Virus record (IMG/VR): IMGVR_UViG_3300043470_000441
Location: 1-20,210 of that record
From: a virus
Strand: one strand, 5' to 3'
Length of the DNA stretch: 20,210 nucleotides
Part shown: in pieces, positions 5,330 through 16,690 of the stretch
Numbering within the stretch: position 1 is the first letter of the stretch
Layout of the letters: the number at the start of each line of letters is the position of its first letter
Made by a program: the position numbers and the translations under genes
Notes under the pieces: model-generated
The model's input: only the letters and a program-made list of their open reading frames with translations
The model's database searches: none
What the model was told of the DNA's origin: nothing

Positions 5330-5542
5330 ATGATACACAAACTACAACAACTAATAGACCGAAAATCATTTGTCGATAATATGGCAAGGAAGTTGCACGT
5401 TAAACCTTCAACAATAGAGTATTATTTTAGAACTGAAATACCTATTAAAAATAAAGTAATAATTGAAGCGTGTTTAGATTTACAATTAAAGTTAGACAAA
5501 GAGTTTAAACAAATAGAGGTTAAGGCTTGGGAGTTGGTTTAA
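5330..5542 (+). CDS. Small helix-turn-helix regulator (70 aa), divergent from the early operon
   Basis: This protein probably binds DNA and controls the divergent promoters beside it. Residues 14-33 (FVDNMARKLHVKPSTIEYYF) form a helix-turn-helix, and the rest (KNKVIIEACLDLQLKLDKEFKQI) a helical tail suited to dimerisation. At 70 residues it is Cro-sized, with no peptidase or effector domain. It reads away from the leftward operon across a 185-bp region containing both promoters and two quasi-palindromes, the layout of a phage control switch. Its stop codon TAA (5540-5542) is part of the TAAC that opens the first palindromic element. A repressor role versus an activator role cannot be decided. 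Confidence 0.7.
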   Translation: MIHKLQQLIDRKSFVDNMARKLHVKPSTIEYYFRTEIPIKNKVIIEACLDLQLKLDKEFKQIEVKAWELV

Positions 5543-5666
5543 CGTTCCCGTGCTTGGTGCAGTGCGGGCTAAAAATGCACCAATTTTCAATTAATAACTA
5601 AACTAAACAAATATGACTGAAATTAAAATTAAAGACCAATCCCCGCATTGCTCCAAACACGTGTTA
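5540..5666 (+). repeat. Palindromic element R1 (127 bp), TAAC...GTTA
   Basis: The left arm 5549-5568 (CGTGCTTGGTGCAGTGCGGG) pairs with the right arm CCCGCATTGCTCCAAACACG (5642-5661) at 17 of 20 positions plus one wobble, across a ~73-nt AT-rich loop. The ends are TAAC (5540-5543) and GTTA (5663-5666). The block AGTGCGGGCTAAAAATGCAC (5561-5580) recurs with one change in R2, and the right arm begins with the same CCCCGCATT. The ATG of the YopX gene (5613) lies in the loop. It is far more GC-rich than the surroundings. It is an attC-like or REP-like mobile element candidate. Confidence 0.75.
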
Positions 5667-6050
5667 GCAAATCGGCTTTGTTTCAGAGCGTGGATTGAAT
5701 CAACTTTAGGGGATTATATGGCTATACAAGGCGAACCCGATTTAGAAACGTTAGGAAGTTTTATGCACCATTATTCTGACTGTAAAAATATAATGCAGTT
5801 TACAGGATTATTAGATAAAAACGGAAGTAAAATTTTTGAAGGAGATATTGTAACTTATAAAAGAAGTGTGGGGAATTGGACTGGACAAAAAATGACTACT
5901 ACTCATAAAATTATTTTTACAGAAGAAGTAAATGCTTTTGTAATGCAATATGGGAGCAGTTACATAAAATTGAGAAAACATTGGGGTTACGAATATGAAG
6001 TAATAGGCAACATTTTTGAAAATCCTGATTTGTTGCAGGGTTTTGTTTAA
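5613..6050 (+). CDS. YopX-family protein with element-derived N-terminus
   Basis: A YopX-family (DUF1867-type) protein, a family widespread in phages whose molecular role is not established. Hallmarks are MQFTGLLDKNG (61-71), EGDIV (76-80) and YEVIGNIFENPDLL (128-141). Family members normally begin with a short M-x-E-I-x-F-R-A-W segment; here the FRAW sits at residues 24-27 and is preceded by about 20 residues encoded by the loop and right arm of palindrome R1 (DQSPHCSKHVLAN). The gene therefore appears to have been placed behind, and fused to, the element's own start codon. It is one of two rightward accessory genes after the HTH regulator. Confidence 0.88.
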   Translation: MTEIKIKDQSPHCSKHVLANRLCFRAWIESTLGDYMAIQGEPDLETLGSFMHHYSDCKNIMQFTGLLDKNGSKIFEGDIVTYKRSVGNWTGQKMTTTHKIIFTEEVNAFVMQYGSSYIKLRKHWGYEYEVIGNIFENPDLLQGFV

Positions 6051-6059
6051 GCTGTTTGC

Positions 6060-6186
6060 TAACGTTTTGCAGCCTTGCGTTAGTGCGGGCTTAAAATGCA
6101 CTACACTTTGTTAAACCACAAATGCTCAATTATGGCAGAAAAAATTGATAAACCACAGACCCCCGCATTACGCAAGACTGCTGTTA
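6060..6186 (+). repeat. Palindromic element R2 (127 bp), TAAC...GTTA
   Basis: Its length matches R1 exactly, from TAAC (6060-6063) to GTTA (6183-6186). The left arm GCAGCCTTGCGTTAGTGCGGG (6069-6089; written here as GCAGCCTTGCG then TTAGTGCGGG) pairs with CCCGCATTACGCAAGACTGC on the right with one bulge and one mismatch. The outer stem differs from R1 (CTTGCG instead of CTTGG), but the right arm differs in step, so pairing is kept. It shares TAACGTT, AGTGCGGGCT-AAAATGCAC and CCCCGCATT with R1. An ATG at 6132 sits 29 nt before the right arm; the distance in R1 is 28 nt. Confidence 0.75.
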
Positions 6187-6434
6187 TAAGCAGTTGCGAT
6201 TGCTTAGTAGGATTTCTTAGTGGAGAAAAAGTAAACAAATCTACTATTGATTATGAAGTAGAAAAGATTGTAAATATTCAACCAACTTTCAAAAAGTACG
6301 GTTTATTGAATGGCGAACCACAAACTAAAAGTCAAATAGTAGATGGTAGAAAAGGATATTTAAGCAGATTTGTTTACTGTCCTTATTGTGGCGAAAAAGT
6401 CAATTGGAAGCAGGTTCTTAGCAATTGCTTATAA
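6132..6434 (+). CDS. Small CxxC protein (100 aa) with element-derived N-terminus
   Basis: Function unknown. The C-terminal part, GYLSRFVYCPYCGEKVNWKQ (residues 75-94), contains a CPYCGE knuckle typical of zinc ribbons, although only one such pair is obvious; CDC at 22-24 might supply the other ligands. I choose ATG 6132 because it occupies the same place in R2 as the YopX start does in R1. An in-frame ATG at 6096 would add 12 residues, but its counterpart in R1 is closed by a stop. Residues 1 to about 18 (MAEKIDKPQTPALRKTAV) come from the palindrome. The stop TAA (6432-6434) is part of the next TAAC. Confidence 0.7.
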   Translation: MAEKIDKPQTPALRKTAVISSCDCLVGFLSGEKVNKSTIDYEVEKIVNIQPTFKKYGLLNGEPQTKSQIVDGRKGYLSRFVYCPYCGEKVNWKQVLSNCL

Positions 6435-6972: not shown

Positions 6973-7123
6973 ATTGATTCATTATTTCGATTATATTTTC
7001 TTTTGAGTAACCTGCACTAACTAATAGATTAACAATTATTTCTATAACTTCTGAACTTGTGAAATCATTATCTTCACTTTCGAAACTATATTTTTTTCCG
7101 TATGCTTGAATTTCTATTTTCAT
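6962..7123 (-). CDS. Small acidic hypothetical protein (53 aa)
   Basis: A 53-residue frame from ATG 7123. It begins MKIEIQAYGKKYSFESED, then DFTSSEVIEIIVNLLVSAGY and an acidic end. The pattern, an N-terminal beta hairpin followed by a helix, resembles tiny proteins often seen in Bacteroidetes phages. Its start overlaps the exonuclease stop as ATGA and its end overlaps the spanin start by 11 nt. Function unknown. Confidence 0.65.
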   Translation of the reverse strand: MKIEIQAYGKKYSFESEDNDFTSSEVIEIIVNLLVSAGYSKENIIEIMNQYEV

Positions 7124-8025
7124 AAAAAGTTATTTGTTTTAAATTTTAAATAATTCATATAAGCACTATTACCTATTTCGTTAGTGCTATCGCAGTCATC
7201 ACATTGCATAAGTCTTTTAATAGTTCCTAAAGCAGTAACATTATTTTTAAGCAAAGTTACATTTTCTGAACCGCAACAACTACAACTATATTTTAAATTA
7301 CCTCCTAATACTCCAGAATGTGTATTTGGTTTAATATAATTTTGCATTGTTAAAAATACATCTTCTAATACTATAATGTCGCCTTCGCAATAAACAACCA
7401 TTTCTTTCATTGCTTCTTTAGATCCTTTTAAAACGTCTTTCCACATATCAAAACCTCTATGCTGAACCTTTGCCCCTACGCCTAAAAATTGTGCTATGTA
7501 ATCTAATTTATTTGAGTTGAAATTAAATCCGTTTTTAGCTTTCTTTAATGTGTCTAAAGTTTTGTATTGCGGAAACATTGGCACTCTATGAAAAATACAA
7601 CGTGTTCTTATCCATTTTATATCAAATCTATCACCATTATGAGCAATCAATTCATCAGCAGTATTTGCAACGTTTACAAAGTCGATTAACATTTGCTTAT
7701 CGCATTGGTTTTTATCCCACGTTAAACTATGTATTTTATCTTCGCTTTCCCACTTGTACGATATGCAAATTATTTTTCTTTCTTCGATTATATCGTGAGG
7801 TTGTAGACTTAAATTGTAACCTATACGCCACGCATAACATATATTTGGACTTGTTTCTATATCAAAAAATAATCTTCTTATTTGATGTTGTGGCTCTCGA
7901 AGTTTTAGTAGTTCTACTTCTTGCTCTTTTGAAAGTCTGTAACGATTTCTTAAATTAAATTCAAGACCTAATTTTCTGACTTCTGCATTATTTAACCTAT
8001 AACGTCTGTTTTTGTTTGGTTTCAT
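7120..8025 (-). CDS. DEDDy 3'-5' exonuclease-like protein with C-terminal zinc ribbon
   Basis: This is a ribonuclease-H-fold 3'-5' exonuclease. Exo I is FFDIET (Asp55, Glu57), Exo II is HNGDRFD (Asp135) and Exo III is YCEGD (Tyr212, Asp216), the DEDDy arrangement; all four acidic residues are present. The N-terminal 50 residues are basic and arginine-rich (RRYRLNNAEVRKLG), probably for nucleic-acid binding. The C-terminus carries CSCCGS (248-253) and CDDC (275-278), a zinc ribbon. Phages of Bacteroidetes carry similar proteins, but a precise role (repair, RNA processing, host DNA turnover) is not known. It is oddly placed, between endolysin and spanin rather than with the recombination genes. 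Confidence 0.82.
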   Translation of the reverse strand: MKPNKNRRYRLNNAEVRKLGLEFNLRNRYRLSKEQEVELLKLREPQHQIRRLFFDIETSPNICYAWRIGYNLSLQPHDIIEERKIICISYKWESEDKIHSLTWDKNQCDKQMLIDFVNVANTADELIAHNGDRFDIKWIRTRCIFHRVPMFPQYKTLDTLKKAKNGFNFNSNKLDYIAQFLGVGAKVQHRGFDMWKDVLKGSKEAMKEMVVYCEGDIIVLEDVFLTMQNYIKPNTHSGVLGGNLKYSCSCCGSENVTLLKNNVTALGTIKRLMQCDDCDSTNEIGNSAYMNYLKFKTNNFL

Positions 8026-8045
8026 AATATTTTTTTATATATTTG
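8015..8045 (+). promoter_or_regulatory. Rightward promoter (TTTG-N19-TATATTTG) with no gene downstream
   Basis: TTTG (8015-8018), exactly 19 bases, then TATATTTG (8038-8045) on the plus strand. This full consensus match lies at the start of the leftward exonuclease gene but points the other way, towards a terminator at 8095-8121. There is no rightward gene between them. Confidence 0.6.
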
Positions 8046-8050
8046 CATCA

Positions 8051-8121
8051 CACAACAACACAAAAAGTTGGTCAACTCGAAATCTGGCAAAATTAACCGC
8101 TATTAACGTAGCGGTTTTTTT
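8051..8121 (+). ncRNA. Candidate small RNA 1 (~70 nt)
   Basis: It is defined by the promoter at 8015-8045 and the intrinsic terminator at 8095-8121. The intervening ~45 nt encode no protein and contain AGTTG-GT-CAACT (5-bp inverted repeat). It lies between the 5' end of the exonuclease gene and the 3' end of the endolysin gene, so it is not antisense to a coding region over most of its length. The ends are inferred from the usual distance between -7 box and start. No known RNA family is recognised. Confidence 0.45.
8095..8121 (+). terminator. Intrinsic terminator, stronger in the rightward direction
   Basis: AACCGCTA (8095-8102) and TAGCGGTT (8109-8116) form a perfect 8-bp stem with a 6-nt loop and a T-run through 8121. 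On the minus strand it is followed only by AATTTTG, so rightward termination is favoured. Leftward use after endolysin cannot be excluded. Confidence 0.75.
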
Positions 8122-8157: not shown

Positions 8158-8532
8158 TTACCAACGTGCCTTTCTTCCTCTATAGTCGTAATGAACCCAA
8201 CTTGGATAAATTCCTACACCGCCTTCTTTCATTTTACCACTTTCAATAAGTCCTTCAATTACTAAAGCTACTTCTTTAGGTGTCATTCCTTGTACTTTAA
8301 TATCAGCAGCAGTACCTCTTAAATGTTGGCTATCTTTTACACCTCCTATTTTAGCATTGTATTTAGGACTTCTGTAACCGCTTGTAATTGTAATAGGTTT
8401 ATTTATTGCAGTTCTTAAAACTTCTAAATTACGTGCAAGTTCAACAATATTTAAAAGTGCGGAGTTTGGAATATCTGAACCATCTTTGCACTTAAACTCT
8501 TCAAGACTAAAGTTCTTTGTTATCTTTGCCAT
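8158..8532 (-). CDS. Endolysin, M15-family peptidase (Peptidase_M15_3-like)
   Basis: This is a zinc-dependent peptidase that cuts peptidoglycan peptide stems during phage lysis. Zinc ligands are visible as SQHLRGTAAD (His70, Asp77) and WVHYD (His114), with the substrate-site SGYRSPKYN (51-59) before them. At 124 residues it is a single catalytic domain without a cell-wall-binding domain, usual for phages of Gram-negative hosts. It has no signal peptide, so it depends on a holin for export, and two small membrane-protein genes lie directly upstream. Its start is overlapped by the 59-residue membrane protein. Confidence 0.9.
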   Translation of the reverse strand: MAKITKNFSLEEFKCKDGSDIPNSALLNIVELARNLEVLRTAINKPITITSGYRSPKYNAKIGGVKDSQHLRGTAADIKVQGMTPKEVALVIEGLIESGKMKEGGVGIYPSWVHYDYRGRKARW

Positions 8533-14977: not shown

Positions 14978-15196
14978 ATGAAACTAAAAGAAAAGTTTAA
15001 AAGTTTAAATACTGATTTTATAAAAAGTAAGGTTTATTATAGGCACAACGCATATAGATGCGAAAAAATAGCAGATGAATTTGCCATTAATTTTGCTAAT
15101 TGGTATGAATTTACTTTAAGAGAAAGCGATAATCTTAATGAAAGATTTACACCTAAAGAATTAATTGAAATGTTTAAAAAAGAGAAAGGATTATAA
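14978..15196 (+). CDS. Small protein (72 aa), paralogue of the early gene at 1881
   Basis: Function unknown. It begins MKLKEKFKSLNTDFIKSKVY, has RCEKIADEFAINFANWYEFT in the middle and ends KELIEMFKKEKGL. The LKEKFK, CEKIADEFAI and terminal helix blocks match the leftward early gene at 1881-2090 in order and spacing. Encoded against the direction of the structural genes, with its own promoter and a shared terminator, it behaves as a moron (an inserted, independently expressed gene). It is coupled to the next gene by a TAATG junction. Confidence 0.75.
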   Translation: MKLKEKFKSLNTDFIKSKVYYRHNAYRCEKIADEFAINFANWYEFTLRESDNLNERFTPKELIEMFKKEKGL

Positions 15197-15399
15197 TGAT
15201 GCTAACACCAAAAGAAAAAGCAAAAGAATTAGTAGATAAAATGCATATTGAAAGTGATATAATTTATGTTATGTCAAAAGCACAAGCTAAAAAATGTGCG
15301 TTAATTTCGGTTGATGAGATATTAAGTGTTTTAGATTATCCTTCAGCACAATATACTTATTATTTAGCAGTTAATATTGAAATAGAAAAAGGGTACTAA
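15196..15399 (+). CDS. Small conserved-type protein (67 aa), second moron gene
   Basis: The sequence LTPKEKAKELVDKMHIESD and AKKCALISVDEILSVLDYP matches a pattern (TPKEKAKELVDKF...CALIAVDEI) that recurs in many small proteins of Bacteroidetes phages and prophages; their role is not known to me. It is helical and without membrane segments. A first start at 15196 gives MM; the second ATG (15199) is equally possible. Its stop overlaps the terminator hairpin. Confidence 0.75.
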   Translation: MMLTPKEKAKELVDKMHIESDIIYVMSKAQAKKCALISVDEILSVLDYPSAQYTYYLAVNIEIEKGY

Positions 15400-16605: not shown

Positions 16606-16613
16606 TATATTTG
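16606..16613 (+). promoter_or_regulatory. Rightward -7 box (TATATTTG) for candidate small RNA 2
   Basis: A perfect TAnnTTTG box on the plus strand, followed by CAT as at 8046-8048. There is no TTG 19 bases upstream; ATTAAAACAC (16577-16586) ends at that distance instead. It points into a 50-nt gene-free stretch that ends in a rightward terminator. Confidence 0.45.
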
Positions 16614-16618
16614 CATTG

Positions 16619-16690
16619 AGGATTTTATCATAAGGTCAAATTTTTAAAGTTAATCATCATTAAAGCCACCCTTTTGAGGTGGCTTTTTTG
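16619..16690 (+). ncRNA. Candidate small RNA 2 (~70 nt)
   Basis: It is bounded by the TATATTTG at 16606-16613 and the terminator at 16663-16689. The stretch between contains no start codon with a usable frame and no gene on either strand, and lies between the protease start and the tape measure stop. The size, layout and position between two leftward genes parallel small RNA 1. The two share GGTCAA and the downstream hairpin, but otherwise little sequence. Confidence 0.4.
16663..16689 (+). terminator. Intrinsic terminator, stronger in the rightward direction
   Basis: AAGCCACC (16663-16670) and GGTGGCTT (16678-16685) form a perfect 8-bp stem with a 7-nt loop and a T-run to 16689. Leftward it is followed only by TTTAAT, so it could end the tape measure transcript weakly, but it reads best as a rightward terminator. 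Confidence 0.75.

Follow-up and report, generated by a model that had tools for sequence, protein, structure and literature searches.

The window, a 20,210-nucleotide stretch of DNA from a Flavobacterium-type phage, contains between its exonuclease and endolysin genes a unit (8015-8121, +) whose anatomy and conservation give good support to the prediction of a self-contained small-RNA gene. The preliminary description had proposed such a stand-alone gene between lysis and nuclease genes, and the conservation of the unit, its exchanged gene contexts and its directional terminator uphold the proposal on sequence grounds. From these features we infer transcription of the unit, the ends of the RNA and, beyond these, action in trans and a host target. 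Our favored reading, which we hold with about even confidence, is that the unit is an accessory phage non-coding RNA gene (~72 nt) with a sequence-dependent mode of action, most likely in trans.

The promoter consists of a -33 element, TTTG (8015-8018, +), and, after a 19-nt spacer, a -7 element, TATATTTG (8038-8045, +), so that the consensus promoter claimed earlier is present. This TTTG-N19-TATATTTG architecture is of the Bacteroidota sigma-A type, and the -7 element fits TAnnTTTG, the sigma-A -7 box of Flavobacterium, which is placed at -12 to -5 in F. psychrophilum (PMC9723704). Setting TATATTTG at the same distance puts the predicted +1 at ~8050, and with an end assigned from the T-tract the predicted RNA spans 8050-8121 (+), or ~72 nt. 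The -7 box lies 49 nt from the hairpin (previously estimated at ~50 nt). The hairpin (8095-8116, +) is, as reported, a perfect 8-bp stem, formed by the arms AACCGCTA (8095-8102) and TAGCGGTT (8109-8116) around a TTAACG loop with a possible extra U-G pair, and runs into a T7 tract (8115-8121, +). The whole (8095-8121, +) is a directional intrinsic terminator: since the tail is T7-8 rightward and only TTAATTTT leftward, the hairpin should terminate better in the rightward direction, in agreement with the original claim. A weak 5' helix (8056-8070, +) pairing CAAC (8056-8059) with GTTG (8067-8070) is predicted in both the window and the related contig L151, and the predicted RNA folds better than its shuffles (z-scores -3.1 and -3.7). 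Among 300 dinucleotide shuffles of the 20-kb window, none contained the combination of -7 box, -33 TTTG and terminator that occurs once in the window itself; dropping the -33 element raises the expectation to a mean of 0.01 per shuffle.

The interval had been called gene-free, and we find within the unit no gene, no ATG and no conserved peptide; a peptide-coding reading was rejected because the predicted RNA holds no ATG and its sole TTG-started frame (12 codons) is lost in relatives. The unit has features of an independent small-RNA gene: a host-consensus promoter and an intrinsic terminator of its own enclose no open reading frame. The divergent neighbor is a PolB-type 3'-5' exonuclease (7120-8025, -; PHROG 403, PF10108), whose start codon is separated by ~25 nt from the start predicted for the RNA, and the convergent neighbor is an M15 peptidase endolysin (8158-8532, -; PHROG 894, PF08291), with a stop codon (8158) beginning 36 nt beyond the predicted RNA end at 8121; the RNA overlaps neither. 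Both neighbors and the surrounding late operon read leftward, opposing the predicted RNA. The statement that all genes read leftward holds for these and fails for 5330-6434 and 14978-15399, which read rightward.

Searching IMG/VR contigs with a DNA pattern and a profile recovered the unit in 10 other viral contigs (L147, L148, L150, L151, L152, L153, L154, L190, L205, and the hybrid L099), representing eight distinct sequences with the window included; L147, L152, L153, and L154 carry one common sequence. Neither the -7 box nor the stretch TTTTTTTATATATTTGCAT varies across the seven distinct sequences that were aligned. The left-hand neighbor, by contrast, is of four different kinds among the carriers: the exonuclease in the window and L151, a metallophosphoesterase in L153 with the same flank in L147, L148, L150, L152, L154, and L205, a lipoprotein-like gene in L190, and yet another gene in L099. 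The right-hand neighbor is the M15 peptidase, replaced in L190 by an unrelated amidase. L099 retains the promoter and the 3' half of the RNA with the first part swapped, and has an HNH-like gene inserted beside the endolysin. That the RNA stays nearly unchanged while its neighbors are exchanged argues for action through its own sequence. Promoter loss in close relatives, named at the outset as evidence against the gene, was not observed as first worded: every carrier has the -7 box (with an N18 spacer in place of N19 in L147), although L190 lacks the -33 TTTG at the expected place, and two contigs (L010 and L012) lack the whole unit even though their exonuclease is nearly identical (98-99% at the amino-acid level) and their endolysin is 90-92% identical. 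Absence from such close relatives indicates that the unit is dispensable.

To gauge constraint on the RNA, we compared it with four-fold degenerate sites in nearby genes shared by the same carriers. Carrier pairs are 89-100% identical over the RNA and 69-91% identical (94% in one pair) at four-fold sites, and the excess is significant in several pairs, with p down to 5e-6. The window matches L147 at 75/75 RNA positions versus 35/44 four-fold sites (p=7e-5) and L190 at 73/75 versus 27/36 (p=6e-4); in the most distant pairs, window with L151 and window with L205, the excess is not significant. Near-identity between carriers could also reflect recent transfer. The window supplies an internal control in a second antisense unit (16606-16690, +) located after a large gene of 674 residues and before the leftward gene that comes next; this unit comprises TATATTTG, an RNA of ~67 nt, a hairpin AAAGCCACC...GGTGGCTTT and a T-run. 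It occurs in three other carriers with a poorly conserved body, being 67-82% identical in pairs where the first unit is 89-100% identical. The compensatory changes that the preliminary description had called for, alongside promoter and hairpin conservation, are represented by one terminator pair in L151 that changed from C-G to A-U on both sides. Hairpin covariation (further pair types number 4 versus 1.8 in shuffles) is suggestive only, and the CAAC/GTTG helix never varies and so yields no covariation evidence.

We also surveyed 100 non-redundant junctions downstream of endolysins in peptidase and amidase phages, reading the strand opposite the endolysin and scoring those in which an intrinsic terminator follows a TAnnTTTG box ahead of the endolysin stop. 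Such an arrangement is present in 32 of the 100 junctions, compared with a mean of 0.125 in shuffled junctions and none on the sense strand; two of the 32 (L240 and L258) probably lie inside genes. The predicted RNAs are mostly 63-74 nt long and fall into at least four sequence families. Family A is the window unit, B comprises L104-L107, C comprises L111-L119 and many amidase phages and has a divergent leftward promoter, and D comprises L103 and L243; the cultivated isolates filifjonk, mumin, and hemulen (PMC7077304) display the same kind of junction as family D, across record ends. Family B matches the family A profile with E-values of 4e-7 to 6e-7 in whole records and ~1e-5 in a pooled search; because the two share mainly promoter and terminator, we claim no homology of the RNA bodies. 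RNA genes of other kinds are found at this place too, in matching orientation: L092 encodes a permuted tmRNA (1938-2167, -; RF04321, 62.5 bits against a cut-off of 47), and L277 carries five tRNAs on the antisense strand (2489-2972, -) that close with a similar terminator. Weak model matches in L317-L319 were rejected, since they are ordinary terminators, or leaders, whose hairpin is similar. Taken together, the junction survey, the several families and the tmRNA and tRNA occupants indicate an RNA-gene slot that counts the window unit among its occupants. The slot, with its interchangeable RNA genes, is more unusual than the unit itself.

By kind, the window RNA would be a phage-encoded small RNA; by family, it has no match in the libraries searched. 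Rfam returned nothing at gathering score and only chance-like matches below the cut-offs at permissive E-values, and neither ARAGORN nor Rfam detected a tRNA or tmRNA domain in the window, so that the RNA differs from the L092 and L277 genes with which it shares place and strand beside the endolysin. Annotated phages and plasmids gave nothing above chance-level matches, an exact search with the conserved pattern found no copy in 84,980 species genomes of bacteria and archaea, and the profile model R1 found 0 matches in 395 Bacteroidota genomes, a set without a positive control. Independent small RNAs of F. psychrophilum such as Rfp18 share the sigma-A -7 box consensus (PMC9723704); these are chromosomal, whereas we found no bacterial-genome copy of the window RNA, and the likeness noted here is in the promoter consensus and in being independent transcription units. 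A literature search on small RNAs of Flavobacterium phages found none.

In the mechanism that we favor, host sigma-A RNA polymerase would start at the TTTG-N19-TATATTTG promoter, and transcription would run rightward against the lysis/late operon to end at the gene's own directional terminator. The gene would occupy a slot downstream of the endolysin that Flavobacterium-type phages use for interchangeable antisense-strand RNA genes, among them several small-RNA families, a permuted tmRNA and tRNAs. During infection the RNA would most likely act in trans on a host RNA or bind a host RNA-binding protein, and it may in addition pair with read-through late mRNA at the leader to which it is complementary. 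Action on host transcripts and control of lysis timing, the two functions suggested in the preliminary description, are candidate functions of the predicted RNA. RNA genes with trans-acting products that share this slot and its orientation (the L092 tmRNA and L277 tRNAs) and the modular exchange of the 5' part of the RNA in L099 speak for the favored mechanism; the two non-significant distant pairs, the absence of the unit in close relatives and the missing -33 TTTG of L190 speak against it.

The main alternative is a cis-acting antisense RNA of the lambda OOP type, which would pair with the intergenic leader of endolysin read-through mRNA and limit expression of the next gene by RNase III cleavage or transcriptional interference. 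Lambda OOP (pO-oop-tO) is the closest known layout: it is a short phage RNA that runs against the surrounding operon from a promoter to a terminator of its own, as predicted here, and it shares 52 nt with the end of cII (PMC5869508). The window RNA, in contrast, overlaps no gene (RNA end 8121, endolysin stop 8158), stops short of the next start codon by ~25 nt, and has no Rfam sequence match. Place, strand and length are fixed in the 32 of 100 junctions despite different sequences; a cis role would predict such a constant position next to the endolysin, which therefore counts against a trans-acting RNA. Complementarity to phage translation starts does not exceed that of shuffles except at the next gene's leader, which is complementary to the RNA by position and gives the strongest predicted duplex in four of the five carriers tested. 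Family A has neither a leftward T-run at its hairpin nor a visible leftward promoter, so the next gene probably relies on read-through. A purely cis-acting RNA, however, needs no sequence conservation, yet this one is kept before unrelated genes while the second antisense unit drifts. On these two points we rank a sequence-dependent, probably trans-acting RNA somewhat higher, and consider the cis-antisense explanation possible though doubtful.

Alternatively, the unit could be a by-product of an operon boundary, where a late-operon terminator and a divergent or symmetric promoter would yield a short functionless RNA. Family C junctions have the expected form, with back-to-back leftward and rightward promoters and hairpins with T-runs on both sides, and the phages of families C and D would make such RNAs. 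Family A departs from it: no leftward TAnnTTTG box is conserved among the aligned carriers, the hairpin has rightward directionality, and conservation of the RNA body exceeds that of nearby synonymous sites. We therefore regard a by-product as unlikely for the window unit.

It is very improbable that the function lies on the leftward strand, with the conserved block forming a structured leader for the gene that follows. The block does extend to the next gene's start codon in the contexts examined; the promoter and the polarity of the T-run, however, suit the rightward strand only, the pair at the top of the hairpin is U-G on the rightward strand but mismatched on the leftward one, and the next genes are unrelated to one another and the block has no Rfam match. 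Least probable of all is an RNA anti-CRISPR (Racr; PMC10651486) or tracrRNA mimic: Racrs are likewise short non-coding phage RNAs, the window unit has its own promoter, and many Bacteroidota repeats also end in GTTG and CAAC motifs, but similarity to 19 Bacteroidota repeats, all of type II, was not consistently above shuffles, and neither similarity to candidate Bacteroidota tracrRNAs nor a tracrRNA-like arrangement was found.

Returning to a sequence-dependent RNA, we tentatively propose, at somewhat less than even confidence, that Flavobacterium-type phages keep an antisense RNA-gene slot by the endolysin into which short RNAs of near-fixed length are swapped as cassettes, with tRNAs or a permuted tmRNA in some phages, and that the window RNA is one of several RNAs that act in trans in host takeover. 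The unit would provide a candidate small RNA of Flavobacterium phages that is bounded by a consensus promoter and a terminator and for which both carriers with different neighbors and natural absence variants exist. The survey predicts short antisense RNAs by the endolysins of many related phages, and because the same kind of junction is found in cultivated Baltic Sea isolates, these are accessible to Northern blotting. Examining such slots also offers a way to find phage RNA genes overlooked by protein-based annotation.

Several of the surveyed contigs show further elements. In family B, L104, L106, and L107 (~1881-1980, -) have an additional hairpin, AGATTT...AAATCT, that encloses a G-rich loop; the L107 slot unit folds with a z-score of -6.8, and the stem is altered on both sides in L106. 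L105 (~1881-2190, -) has two antisense promoter-RNA-terminator units in tandem downstream of its endolysin. Four tRNAs lie beside the endolysin of L101 (2056-2460, +), on the endolysin strand. In L317 (1258-1387, -), TATATTTG is followed by a ~110-nt leader whose terminator-like hairpin lies immediately ahead of a start codon, possibly an attenuator of a phage gene. Finally, a 3' UTR element, GGCTCGGCAAAGCTTAAACCACTCTTAACGGAGTGG, precedes a T-run in both L317 (1501-1560, -) and L319 (~1535-1600, +) and is thus common to two different phages.
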